Shown: positions 7,560 to 19,193 of the stretch, piece after piece
Numbering within the stretch: the first letter of the stretch is position 1
Layout: each line of letters opens with the position of its first letter
IMG/VR virus record: IMGVR_UViG_3300028388_001349
Coordinates: 1-20,020 of that record
DNA length: 20,020 nucleotides
DNA from: a virus
Strand: one strand, 5' to 3'
Notes under the pieces: generated by a model
Database searches by the model: none
What the model saw: the letters and a program-made list of their open reading frames with translations, nothing else
Told to the model about the DNA's origin: nothing
Translations under genes and position numbers: made by a program

Positions 7560-7635
7560 TGGGGGCGGGAGGGGGACTTGCACCCCCGTCCTCCGGGATA
7601 TGAACCCGGCGTCCTAGCTGCTAGACCATCCCGCT
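7560..7635 (-). tRNA. tRNA with CAT anticodon (Met type), CCA encoded
   Basis: A full cloverleaf can be drawn. The acceptor is AGCGGGA with TCCCGCC (first pair A-C mismatched). The D stem is GTCT/GGAC with loop AGCAGCTA. The anticodon stem is CCGGG/CCCGG with loop TTCATAT (anticodon CAT at 7600-7602). The variable loop is AGGAC. The T stem is GGGGG/CCCCC with loop TGCAAGT. The discriminator is C, followed by encoded CCA at 7562-7560. The unpaired 1-72 position and three G-C pairs next to the anticodon loop are initiator-like. The D stem has the elongator-type T11-A24 pair and resembles glutamate tRNAs. Initiator, elongator Met or lysidine-modified Ile identity cannot be settled. It lies inside the head-gene operon behind its own promoter. 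Confidence 0.9.
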
Positions 7636-13386: not shown

Positions 13387-15333
13387 CTAGTACCCGAATG
13401 TTGCGTCTACCGGCTGCCAGCGTTGCGGGGCTACGCCACGACCAAACTGATCAAACGGACTGAACGCACGCGGGCGGGACATGATGCCGTACCGAATAGA
13501 GTCATAAGCGTGGTCCGACGCGTACCGCTGATCGATGTCTTCCCCACCCTTGGGGTCCATCGGGATCACCGGAAGGTCGGCAATAATCTGGCGGCAAGTG
13601 TTGAAAAACATGATGCCGGGACGTTCGGTCACTTCATCAACTTTCAGAAGTTCGTGCAGGCGGTTCTTACCAGCCACACGCGACCGGGGGGACCGGTCGG
13701 AGGGACGCCACCGACATCCGGCAGCAATCATCTCCTCCGCAATCGAGGGGCCGACCTGCCCCCTCTGGTGCCAACACGACGAGTCGAGGACGCCGTAGTC
13801 GATACTTTCGCCTTTTTCCGCTTCCAGAACGGCTTTCGCCAGATCACGACCGGTGTATCTGGAGATATACAGTTCACGGTAGACAATCAGGGTTTCGTAC
13901 GCCGGGTCGATTGCATACCAGTGAACTGCTGAATACGATGAATAGCCGTAATCACAGGAACGAAACCGCCGCCAAGTATCAGGAATGTCGAAAGGGTCAC
14001 AGACATGGTGTTTAGCCCTGAATTCGGAGAATGCCGCCCCCTCGGCAATCGTCCAATCACCTTCCAGTAGCTGCCGTCGCTGCATTTCAGGGAGCGACAG
14101 CAGGTTTGCTTCGTAGTTTCCATCCTCCGTCAGGTACGGGTTGTCGTACAGGCTGGCGGGAATGAAGCGGCGCTGGAACAGAGGCTGACCCGCTTTTTCG
14201 TGATGCGGAGGGTACGACAGGACTTCACCGGTACTGATGTCGGTCGCCGGGAAAGGTTTACCGGGAGGCGACGGGTCGATGAACATCTGCTTCACCCAGC
14301 CGTGCCCCGGACCACCGGGGTTGGTGGTAGCCCGCATAAAGATAGGCAGGTCGGCAACCGTGGTACGCAGTCGTGACCGCATGTAGTTCCACGCAAACGG
14401 CGTGGGGTACTGAGTCAACTCGTCAAAGGCGATGTAGGAGAAGGCCTGACCTTGGTAACGCAGAACGTCCTCGTCCCGTTCAAGGTAGGTCAGCCACAAC
14501 CGGCCCCCTTTAGGGAAGGTCCACTGGCTCTTCTTCTCCTGCCATTTCGCACCCGGAAAGGCCTTGGGATACAACTCTTGGGACTTCCAGATCAGTTCCC
14601 GCAATTCGTCGTTCGTACGGCGGAATATGATGCCGTTGAATTGCGGATGATCGAAGTACCGCATAGGATCAGCCAGAAGGCCGTAAGACTTACCACCACC
14701 GGCAGCGCCACCATAAAGTACCTCCCGTTCTGCTGCGGCAAGAAACTCTGTCTGTGGTCCGGGGTTGGGGCTGAAAACAACCTCAACCTCGTCGGTGTTT
14801 TCCCCTACGACGCTGAAGTCCAGCGTATCGGAAATGGTTGGGGATGGGGGTTCTGGGTTGAGAGGCTCAAGGCCTCGCTCTTTTCTCCACTCGTCGTGGG
14901 GTTTCCAGTTGTCGAGTTGCTTTTGTTTAATCGCCGCAACTCGTTTGGCATCCGCGATTTTCCTTTTGATTCTCGCTTTGGCCTTCTCTTCGCCAGTTTT
15001 GGGTTTGTTCCTGCGGTGACGTTTACGCAGTTCCTTCGCGCGTTCGTTCTTTGGATCAGACCCACGACTTTCCTTCCATCGGTTAGAGACTCCTTGGTGA
15101 GAAATCTTTTTACCGGTAGCTGAAGTCAGCCAATCAGCCGCCTCACGAAACGAAGCACCAGCATCAATAGCATCGAAGGCCTTCTCCATAGCCTCTGCCA
15201 TCTCCGGGATGGGCTTGAGAAGGAGGGGGTCGTGAGAACACGGCTCGTAGCCCCACGCAGGCTTCTGGCGAGTGTACATACGCCTGCGGTACGGCCAGCC
15301 AGTAATGCTGCAAATGGTGACTTCGTCACTCAT
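13387..15333 (-). CDS. Terminase large subunit with N-terminal extension, 648 aa
   Basis: Motor and nuclease that packages DNA into the procapsid. ATPase domain: Walker A GGAAGGGKS (208-216), Walker B SYIAFDE (299-305), coupling motif ATTNPGG (335-341). Nuclease domain: acidic residues in SCDYGYSS (D461), GVLDSS (D517) and SDHAYDSIRYG (D607/D611). Residues 1-190 are an extension before the ATPase. It holds an ITGWPYRRRMYTR start with paired Cys (8 and 32), a helix-turn-helix-like segment FREAADWLTSATGKKISHQG (62-81), and a very basic helix (95-140). The start at 15333 is preferred over 15384 because the ATG overlaps the TerS TGA. It works with TerS and the portal. Confidence 0.92.
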   Translation of the reverse strand: MSDEVTICSITGWPYRRRMYTRQKPAWGYEPCSHDPLLLKPIPEMAEAMEKAFDAIDAGASFREAADWLTSATGKKISHQGVSNRWKESRGSDPKNERAKELRKRHRRNKPKTGEEKAKARIKRKIADAKRVAAIKQKQLDNWKPHDEWRKERGLEPLNPEPPSPTISDTLDFSVVGENTDEVEVVFSPNPGPQTEFLAAAEREVLYGGAAGGGKSYGLLADPMRYFDHPQFNGIIFRRTNDELRELIWKSQELYPKAFPGAKWQEKKSQWTFPKGGRLWLTYLERDEDVLRYQGQAFSYIAFDELTQYPTPFAWNYMRSRLRTTVADLPIFMRATTNPGGPGHGWVKQMFIDPSPPGKPFPATDISTGEVLSYPPHHEKAGQPLFQRRFIPASLYDNPYLTEDGNYEANLLSLPEMQRRQLLEGDWTIAEGAAFSEFRAKHHVCDPFDIPDTWRRFRSCDYGYSSYSAVHWYAIDPAYETLIVYRELYISRYTGRDLAKAVLEAEKGESIDYGVLDSSCWHQRGQVGPSIAEEMIAAGCRWRPSDRSPRSRVAGKNRLHELLKVDEVTERPGIMFFNTCRQIIADLPVIPMDPKGGEDIDQRYASDHAYDSIRYGIMSRPRAFSPFDQFGRGVAPQRWQPVDATFGY

Positions 15334-15709
15334 TCGTTTCCTGCTTCGGAGGGAGGACAAAGAGGCCACCTTTCGGCCCTTCAACCTCTACCTTTTCCGT
15401 TTTCACGATACCGGCACGATCCAGAAGTTCCTTGGCCGCAGCCACTTTGGTCTTCGCACCGAGCGAAGCCGGATCGTTAAGGACATCAATCATGCCGTAC
15501 ACGGCGAGAGGGCCGTGCAGGGCCAAGGTGGTCGTGGCGGCTTCCACCACGTGTTCCTTGATGGGTCCGATGGCTTCCATGATGGTGGTTGCATCGGAAT
15601 AACCGGCCACGCGCATCGCTTGCCGGATATTGCCCTTCGACTCCCCAAAGAGGGCGTCTAGGAATACTTTCTGACGTTCGGTCAGTTCTTTCTTTTTCTT
15701 GTCACTCAT
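15326..15709 (-). CDS. Terminase small subunit, 127 aa
   Basis: DNA-recognition partner of TerL. It starts with a basic MSDKKKKELTERQKVFLDAL, and residues about 10-40 form the helix-turn-helix region of this family (NIRQAMRVAGYSDATTIME). A central oligomerisation helix and a C-terminal tail (KVEVEGPKGGLFVLPPKQET), expected to contact the large subunit, follow. The length is normal for phage TerS. It lies directly before TerL, whose ATG overlaps its stop. The ATG at 15709 overlaps the stop region of the small membrane protein upstream. Confidence 0.85.
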   Translation of the reverse strand: MSDKKKKELTERQKVFLDALFGESKGNIRQAMRVAGYSDATTIMEAIGPIKEHVVEAATTTLALHGPLAVYGMIDVLNDPASLGAKTKVAAAKELLDRAGIVKTEKVEVEGPKGGLFVLPPKQETNE

Positions 15710-17025: not shown

Positions 17026-17262
17026 CTATGAACCGGGGAGTACCGTATCCGGAAGACCCATCTCAGGGTCCAGATCAACCTCTACTTCCGCCCGCTCCAT
17101 CTCAAACAACTGATCGTAGCTGAAGATGGTCTTAGCATCCTCGTCAGCCTGTCGCTGCGTGATCAGCCCCTCCTCGACGAGGAGAGTACGGATGGTTTCT
17201 AGGGGTAGTCGTTGACCGGTAGCAGCTTCAATCGCCGCACGGATCAGATGCAGGTTGATCAT
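17026..17262 (-). CDS. First gene of the late operon, hypothetical, 78 aa
   Basis: Begins MINLHLIRAAIEAATGQRLP, followed by ETIRTLLVEEGLITQRQADE and an acidic C-terminus (AEVEVDLDPEMGLPD). The predicted helical N-terminal half could be a helix-turn-helix, but no regulator family is recognised. The ATG at 17262 is chosen because the longer frame would start upstream of, or inside, the -10 region at 17297-17302. The leader is about 26 bases and contains a small stem CACTC-CCCAA-GAGTG, with the only candidate ribosome site (AAGAG) inside it, so translation of this first gene may be tuned by that stem. Confidence 0.7.
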   Translation of the reverse strand: MINLHLIRAAIEAATGQRLPLETIRTLLVEEGLITQRQADEDAKTIFSYDQLFEMERAEVEVDLDPEMGLPDTVLPGS

Positions 17263-17296: not shown

Positions 17297-17325
17297 ATTA
17301 TGGCATAAGAGGTGTAACAAGTCAA
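17297..17325 (-). promoter_or_regulatory. Extended -10 sigma70-type promoter of the late operon
   Basis: TTGACT (17325-17320), 17-base spacer, CATAAT (17302-17297), with TGC immediately before the -10. Its start point is expected near 17289, about 26 bases before the ATG at 17262. It points leftward into the small-gene, packaging and head genes. It is one of three promoter candidates in the window that share the TGN extension, which suggests use of the host housekeeping sigma factor. Confidence 0.78.
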
Positions 17326-17357: not shown

Positions 17358-17376
17358 TACCCCAAAAAAAGGGGTA
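17358..17376. repeat. Operator-like inverted repeat over the rightward -35
   Basis: TACCCC (17358-17363), seven A, GGGGTA (17371-17376): a perfect 6-bp inverted repeat with a seven-base centre. Its right arm overlaps the first two bases of the -35 box TAGACA at 17375-17380. A dimeric repressor binding here would block the small RNA promoter; this is inference from position. Confidence 0.5.
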
Positions 17377-17402
17377 GACAAATCTGAAAAATGTGATATA
17401 AT
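17375..17402 (+). promoter_or_regulatory. Rightward extended -10 promoter for the small RNA
   Basis: TAGACA (17375-17380), 16-base spacer, perfect TATAAT (17397-17402), preceded by TGA so that the extended -10 TG is present. The start is expected near 17409. It is the only convincing plus-strand promoter in the window and has no protein gene downstream of it. Confidence 0.78.
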
Positions 17403-17408
17403 AAGTGT

Positions 17409-17487
17409 AACGTCAAAGGGAAAAATAAACCTATAGGGGGGAGACCCCCTACCGGACATGAAGAGGCCTTACCGGGCCTCTTTTTTT
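17409..17487 (+). ncRNA. Predicted small RNA of about 79 nt
   Basis: The region between the rightward promoter and the terminator has no plausible start codon with ribosome site and no open frame. From the predicted start near 17409 it contains a single-stranded A-rich 5' part, a perfect 7-bp hairpin TAGGGGG-GAGA-CCCCCTA (17434-17451) capped by a GNRA-type loop, a short linker, and an 8-bp terminator stem with seven U at the end. This layout (promoter, structured body, intrinsic terminator) is what short regulatory RNAs show. It lies just downstream of the last gene of the leftward accessory operon and would be antisense to any read-through from it. It may act on host or phage messages, or bind a protein; function unknown. 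Confidence 0.65.
17461..17487 (+). terminator. Intrinsic terminator of the small RNA
   Basis: Perfect 8-bp stem AAGAGGCC (17461-17468) with GGCCTCTT (17475-17482), six-base loop TTACCG, and seven T at 17481-17487. In the leftward direction only two U follow the stem, so it is directional for rightward transcription. Confidence 0.82.
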
Positions 17488-17491
17488 GTGC

Positions 17492-17782
17492 CTACTCGTC
17501 TCCCATCAGGTCGTAGATGGCCTTCAGCTTTCTCTGAAGAAAACCCTCCCTCGCAGCGACGTTACTCTCCCTCTGCTCTATCTCCCTCTCAAGGGAAGCC
17601 AGCTTCGTATTGAGGTCGTGTGCGTGCTTGGAAAGGTACGCATTCTCAGTCTTTAACTTCTTGATACGGGTGTACGCCTCCTTGAGGAGCCGGGCCTCCT
17701 TGACCTTGCCCTTCTCGACCAGCCATTCGCCGTCATCAAGGTAGTACTCCCTGATCTTGTCTTCGATATCTTTACCGGCCAT
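17492..17782 (-). CDS. Coiled-coil protein, 96 aa
   Basis: Entirely helical and charged: MAGKDIEDKIREYYLDDGEW, then a heptad pattern through IKKLKTENAYLSKHAHDLN and LEREIEQRESNVAAREGFLQ. The ATG at 17782 overlaps the stop of the previous gene by 11 bases and has a GAGG ribosome site. It is the last gene of the accessory operon and probably partners with the coiled-coil protein upstream. No family recognised; such small proteins can be scaffolds for other factors. Confidence 0.7.
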   Translation of the reverse strand: MAGKDIEDKIREYYLDDGEWLVEKGKVKEARLLKEAYTRIKKLKTENAYLSKHAHDLNTKLASLEREIEQRESNVAAREGFLQRKLKAIYDLMGDE

Positions 17783-18477: not shown

Positions 18478-18711
18478 CTAGACCCCACCTTCAGGATCGA
18501 CCACAGCAGGAAGAGGAAGGCTGCGTACAAAAGCCCGCCCAGAAGGGGCAGACTCGCTATCATGATTTCGATCAACATCGATTATAAACCCCCGTCCCCG
18601 GCATGCGGGGCACTCCCGCATCAACACCGAATACCCCAAAAGGTCGTTGTTGGTGCGAGTGATGCCTACCCCACCGCACTCAGGACATTTTCTTGAGTAG
18701 TTACCGTTCAT
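18478..18711 (-). CDS. Small protein with two CxxCxGxG zinc-finger motifs, 77 aa
   Basis: Residues 9-16 read CPECGGVG and 34-41 CPACRGRG, the DnaJ central-domain type motif that binds one zinc ion through four cysteines. Between them lies a short hydrophobic strand (LLGYSVLM). This is all of a DnaJ-type domain that is present; there is no J domain. The ATG at 18711 is preferred over an upstream TTG at 18753 that would overlap the previous gene; neither has a clear ribosome site. Small proteins with this motif occur in many phages, with mostly unknown roles such as binding nucleic acid or a chaperone. Confidence 0.75.
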   Translation of the reverse strand: MNGNYSRKCPECGGVGITRTNNDLLGYSVLMRECPACRGRGFIIDVDRNHDSESAPSGRAFVRSLPLPAVVDPEGGV

Positions 18712-18749
18712 AGGGGCACTGTAACACACTTCTTGGGGGTGTTGGAAGG

Positions 18750-19193
18750 TCAAAACCAGAGTGGTTCCCGGTAATAATGGAATAAGGTTACCAAATCCCC
18801 TATCAGGTGGTCCCTATCCATGTCCTGCGGCCTCTCGTACTGGTTTACTCCCTTATTATTCACAATTTCCGCCTCCCGAAGCCTGAAATACCCCGTATCC
18901 AAGGCCACGAAGGCGTACCAATCCGCCTCTTTCCGCTTCACCGAATACTGGTACAGCCTCATCCCCCCTACACTGACCGGGGATGGGGCTGTTTTTACTT
19001 GCAGGGAGAACATCTGACCGCCTCCGGGGAACCTACAGAAGATATCCGTACCCCTCCGATCAACGATGGAGGCCGATACCCCCACCCCCTCCATCACAGA
19101 GGCCACCAGATACTCCCCAACCCGGCCAATATCGGCACTACCGATACTCCCGGATAGCGGGATACCCTCTTCAAACCGGAACAACACCCCCAT
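18750..19193 (-). CDS. PD-(D/E)XK-type nuclease-like protein, 147 aa
   Basis: Contains the order of elements of small PD-(D/E)XK enzymes such as Holliday-junction-resolvase-like and endonuclease-like families: GRVGEYLV (Glu27), GTDIFCRF (Asp50), FSLQVKTA (Gln65-x-Lys67), followed by ADWYAFVALDTGYFRL. The expected second acidic residue of the D-(E/Q)xK motif is Gln here, which is known in some active families. Its length of 147 aa fits the minimal fold. The ATG at 19193 is set by the TGATG overlap with the preceding gene. It could process DNA during replication or recombination or attack host DNA; no substrate can be assigned. Confidence 0.72.
   Translation of the reverse strand: MGVLFRFEEGIPLSGSIGSADIGRVGEYLVASVMEGVGVSASIVDRRGTDIFCRFPGGGQMFSLQVKTAPSPVSVGGMRLYQYSVKRKEADWYAFVALDTGYFRLREAEIVNNKGVNQYERPQDMDRDHLIGDLVTLFHYYREPLWF

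Follow-up and report, generated by a model that had tools for sequence, protein, structure and literature searches.

Phages related to the one analysed here share a promoter-driven noncoding unit, whose conservation is strongly supported by the comparison of their sequences. We favour, with middling confidence, the reading that this is an OOP-like unit of the CRP-3-like HMO-2011-type phages that would function mainly in cis and not via a conserved folded RNA. The unit was analysed in a virus record that comprises only one contig of 20,020 bases, and the whole of this stretch is called the window in the following. Promoter and neighbour gene allow the unit to be identified although its RNA is not conserved, and in CRP-3, whose genome was scanned completely, the best-scoring sigma70-type site makes no protein. 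If the unit acts in cis, it would provide a concrete handle on the start of replication or on operon switching in HMO-2011-type phages. The literature presents these phages as a dominant group with a wide distribution in the ocean (PMC9038755), and neither work on promoters or noncoding RNAs of this group nor a transcriptome of these phages was found in the literature searched.

Within the window, the plus-strand promoter scores 11 of 12 with an extended -10 (TG before the -10) and is the top of four sigma70-like sites (Table 1). The combination of a promoter that has an extended -10 and scores at least 11/12 with a terminator within 150 nt downstream occurs once in the window, and 400 dinucleotide shuffles of the window yielded neither such a promoter nor such a promoter-terminator unit. 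Terminator-like hairpins alone are common (27 found in the window, 17.5 expected). The predicted RNA folds with -31.8 kcal/mol, which corresponds to a z of -3.6 against shuffles. The original prediction had listed an extended -10 box with a -35 one mismatch off consensus at 16-bp spacing, a terminator stem with seven T downstream, a GNRA-type hairpin between the two, and the absence of an open frame. All of these elements were found again: the promoter at 17375-17402, the terminator at 17460-17487, a GAGA loop on the middle stem, and no credible ORF in the unit, whose sole ATG sits within the terminator. An Rfam search of the window returned nothing at the unit, the only match above the gathering threshold being a tRNA elsewhere. 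A function as mRNA leader was rejected because there is no gene nearby on the plus strand.

Table 1. Position of the noncoding unit and of the adjoining promoters and genes in the window.
Feature	Positions	Strand	Remarks
Divergent partner gene, 78 aa (MINLHLIRAAIEAATG...), helical	17026-17262	-	Conserved family; homologue loci, structure prediction
Divergent late-strand promoter, TTGACT-17-TGCCATAAT	17297-17325	-	48 nt from the plus-strand -35; drives gene 17026-17262
Inverted repeat between both promoters, TACCCC-A7-GGGGTA	17358-17376		Overlaps the plus-strand -35; read from the sequence
Extended -10 sigma70-type promoter, TAGACA-16-TGATATAAT	17375-17402	+	-35 TAGACA 17375-17380, spacer 16 nt, TGA-TATAAT 17394-17402; sequence read, promoter scan, shuffles; kept in relatives
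Predicted noncoding RNA, about 79 nt	17409-17487	+	Start at 17409 predicted, 7 nt past the -10
GC-rich hairpin	17433-17452		GAGA (GNRA) loop on the + strand; on the - strand precedes TTTATTTTT
Intrinsic terminator, GAAGAGGCCT-UACC-GGGCCUCUUU and T-run	17460-17487	+	Terminator scan; hairpin 17460-17483 with 10 pairs (GU allowed), seven-T run ending at 17487
Convergent late-strand gene, 96 aa, coiled-coil-like	17492-17782	-	Stop 5 nt past the terminator; not a conserved neighbour

The terminase of the window (13387-15384, minus strand) is 66-70% identical to those of the Roseobacter phages CRP-235, CRP-3, CRP-738, and CRP-212, and on this identity the window is assigned to a CRP-3-like HMO-2011-type podovirus. 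At the DNA level no similarity of the window to phage records was found. In CRP-3 the early genes run in one direction and the accessory and late genes in the other, and no RNA polymerase gene is annotated in CRP-3-like genomes. The window also carries a tRNA-Met (CAT) gene (7560-7635, minus strand) in the interval that separates the coat gene from its upstream neighbour. CRP-3 integrates into the host tRNA-Met (CAT) (PMC6918029), and the tRNA of the window could have to do with attachment, or the phage may just carry it. A small protein (18478-18753, minus strand) contains a DnaJ-type CXXCXGXG zinc domain (E 2.6e-7, just below the curated cut-off); a partial DnaJ domain is known within the DNA polymerase of HMO-2011-type phages (PMC6918029).

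Among the loci fetched by similarity of the terminase, most of those that extend far enough have a strong promoter with an extended -10 at 1.0-3.1 kb upstream of this gene, on the strand opposite to that of the late genes. On an ad hoc promoter score with a threshold of 18.5 for relatives, 41 of 51 regions upstream of the terminase have a site of at least 18.5, compared to 1 of 51 shuffled regions and 1 of 50 structural-gene regions downstream, searched on the same strand. Because this first set of loci was partly chosen by promoter score, the test was redone with loci anchored on the protein of about 80 aa encoded beside the unit, and the promoter was sought within 260 nt of its gene (78 usable loci, 41 of them distinct). 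An opposite-strand promoter of at least 18.5 is present in 34 of the 41 distinct loci but in only one of 41 after shuffling. Some related sequences are counted repeatedly, although the main tests relied on distinct sets. The scan of the whole CRP-3 genome ranks the promoter of the unit first among all sigma70-type sites (21.4) and its divergent partner second (18.8). Five relatives of the window's own partner gene also have the unit, some with a clear terminator. A search of viral contigs with the promoter pattern of the window's group gave no match, and no similar unit was seen in the stretches fetched from HMO-2011, CRP-1, CRP-2, CRP-603, and HTVC033P.

The unit had been noted as the only plus-strand transcription unit seen, at the junction of the accessory and late operons. 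It is not isolated: the plus-strand promoter stands back to back with a late-strand promoter, and the position, although roughly right, is more exactly described as the intergenic region upstream of the conserved gene of about 80 aa. In the relatives the late-strand partner promoter has a TTGACT/C box, a spacer of 17-18 nt, and in most cases an extended -10, and the gap between both -35 boxes usually measures 9-65 nt (48 in the window). The family of the partner gene, with the motif INLxYIRAAIEAxTG..LLxEEGLIT..IFRGY, is found beside the unit throughout the relatives. Its protein is predicted to consist of short helices, with good confidence at residues 1-40. Profile and fold searches provided weak winged-helix hints but nothing firm; the best fold match (Z 2.6) is uninformative, and families absent from the listing may still apply. 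The partner gene is also present in three contigs filed as bacterial, L155 (from a Rhodobacteraceae bin), L156, and L157 (from a Pelagibacter MAG), which are probably phage or prophage DNA; the opposite-strand promoter beside it is strong in L155 and weaker in L156. While the divergent family is constant, the convergent gene differs among the phages, and the search run for relatives of the gene at 17492-17782 found none. Read by eye, the convergent gene of many relatives (L027, L037, L039, L058, L063, and others) resembles a short DUF1127-type protein, and in CRP-603 a DUF1127 gene is annotated close to the terminase.

Aligned on the -10, 39 loci reveal a common pattern around the expected start. 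A GC block at +12 to +21 after the -10, in which T is absent from +14 to +18 save for one locus at +15, is followed by an AT block at +22 to +33 that usually reads TATATA and is devoid of G at +23 to +25. In addition, about half of the loci contain an inverted repeat that begins directly past the -10 and spans the expected start. The arms of this dyad change together (CGAG/CTCG, GAAG/CTTC, CAGGA/TCCTG, and others). Stems of at least 4 bp are found in 17 of the 39 distinct loci, with 14 different left arms, whereas permutation gives 2.7±1.5 (maximum 8 in 2000), and the dyad is the first of 336 pairs of alignment windows for covariation. Since its left arm is situated ahead of the expected start, the dyad is a property of the DNA or of a melted strand and was rejected as part of the RNA. 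To our knowledge, no promoter class with a covarying start-site dyad has been described. A LexA-type operator, as suggested by CGAAC..GTTCG in some loci, was rejected because arms and spacing vary. Likewise rejected was a T7-type promoter: CCTATAGGGGGGAGA resembles CACTATAGGGAGA, but the specificity region is mismatched and CRP-3-like annotations contain no RNA polymerase. Some members have C-runs in place of G-runs, which weakens a G-cluster R-loop as the sole rule. The succession of a promoter and an AT-rich unwinding stretch is clear in the family but weak in the window, whose start region has no dyad and scores poorly for the GC/AT pattern.

Conservation concerns the promoter and the site of the transcription start, and not the shape of the RNA. 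In a lenient scan, 25 of 45 RNAs of relatives have a terminator within about 220 nt (7 expected by shuffling), and about 20 of these 25, the window included, have strong terminator hairpins. The fold is not kept: the mean z over the 45 RNAs is -0.70, with values below -1.5 in 7 only, and a fixed RNA family was rejected on these grounds. Covariation inside the transcript is weak (+14 to +19 with +40 to +47, z 3.3), and compensatory changes that would maintain stems there were not found. Of the two features whose joint loss in related genomes was, by the original prediction, to speak against the unit, the promoter is kept and the two stems are not. The original prediction had proposed a regulatory RNA or an RNA that binds a host protein. 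What stands of this is a conserved promoter-driven noncoding unit; nothing suggests binding of a host protein, and a folded RNA with such a role is not supported.

A diffusible or cis-antisense regulatory RNA, whose pairing partner would be either the 3' end of the convergent gene or some other RNA of phage or host, appears somewhat unlikely to us. It would fit the terminators in about half of the family and the RNA of the window, which folds better than its shuffles. The stop codon of the convergent gene is located about 20-300 nt from the start, so that many of the predicted transcripts overlap this gene. However, neither sequence nor fold of the RNA is conserved, and the varying convergent gene leaves no common antisense target. 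Complementarity to a fixed target gene as in OOP is thus not seen, and the RNA of the window already ends before the coding region.

Because evolution has maintained the promoter and its association with the small gene, as well as the start region of most relatives, we favour an action in cis over a folded trans-acting RNA. In the mechanism that we infer, a strong promoter for the host RNA polymerase would fire against the gene set and produce a short untranslated RNA, which in about half of the phages, including the window, would be ended by an intrinsic terminator. The unit always stands back to back with the promoter of a single small gene that is conserved, and it would act at initiation and early elongation on the site. 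There, RNA polymerase would open a start region that passes from GC-rich into TATATA in most relatives and that could fold on itself across the start in about half. Such an opening would suit a DNA-opening, R-loop, or priming role, with the RNA being product or primer. Read-through that comes from the convergent gene upstream would be disturbed by this transcription as well. Against the cis reading it must be considered that its features are weakest in the window itself, that the dyad is missing from about half of the family, and that the RNA of the window is more structured than expected, which would suit a role of the RNA.

An action in cis could extend to replication. The host RNA polymerase would then open the self-complementary start and the GC-then-AT DNA, and either the opening or the short RNA would prime or license replication of the phage; we regard this specific role as unlikely. 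The cumulative GC skew of CRP-3 has no switch at the unit and the fourfold-site skew of four complete genomes gave no signal, which speaks against an origin at the unit as far as these two measures go. CRP-3-like phages also have a stretch of 750-860 nt free of annotated genes (L082 3753-4610, L085 3099-3851, L086 4295-5100, L087 3811-4583), which contains short repeats and, around GTATAC, a block common to these phages, and which adjoins another late-strand promoter. This stretch is possibly an origin, a packaging site, or a long RNA.

Alternatively, the unit could be an insulator, with the promoter firing at the upstream late-strand operon and blocking its run-in to the next operon by transcription interference, while the hairpins help to terminate in one or both directions. 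The unit does face the end of the upstream gene, and interference between the convergent pR and pO has been discussed for lambda (PMC3985674). In the window, the scan lists the middle hairpin as terminator-like on the minus strand (17452-17433, followed by AGGTTTATTTTT). On that strand it would possibly terminate transcription of the upstream late-strand gene, a property that speaks for some insulation in the window, and it possibly has no part in the function of the plus-strand RNA. However, the covarying dyad and the GC/AT start region would be left unexplained, and an ordinary terminator would suffice; we consider insulation quite unlikely. That the region controls the divergent gene, with the dyad as operator and the plus-strand transcript as by-product or titration device, is very improbable: the invariant pairing with this gene, the helical fold, and the weak winged-helix profile matches would agree with it, but the arms of the dyad differ freely among the loci while their complementarity is maintained, and its loop is not of constant length either, which would be unusual for a protein site; the window has no dyad, and the fold search of the protein yielded nothing usable.

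Several phage systems share single aspects with the unit. T4 oriF and T7 phi1.1 are transcription-primed origins, in which a promoter is placed directly before an AT-rich stretch. A similar succession is seen in the family of the unit, though weakly in the window, but there was no skew switch or other evidence of an origin, and no phage RNA polymerase is annotated in the CRP-3-like genomes. The lambda 6S RNA is a short terminated leader without a gene; its strong promoter pR' points to the late genes, and Q extends the transcript. In contrast, the unit runs away from the late genes and there is no nearby downstream gene on its strand. P22 sar and P1/P7 c4 are small antisense RNAs of phages with a role in control (PMC12197685). 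Their target is fixed, whereas the gene overlapped by the unit differs among the phages and the RNA of the unit shows no conservation. Compared to lambda OOP, no O-like initiator or iterated origin was recognised, no sequence relation was seen, and the unit does not overlap a conserved cII-like gene but is divergent to a different conserved gene. Lambda OOP/pO is nevertheless the nearest parallel. Both combine a host promoter opposite to the neighbouring genes with a short noncoding RNA, predicted in the case of the unit, and an intrinsic terminator (PMC3985674, PMC12197685), and the window has both elements, its own host-type promoter in this orientation and a terminator within about 130 nt. 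For replication of lambda it is the activity of the promoter pO, and not the RNA, that seems to count (PMC3985674, PMC12197685); the oop RNA appears to be dispensable there (PMC3985674).
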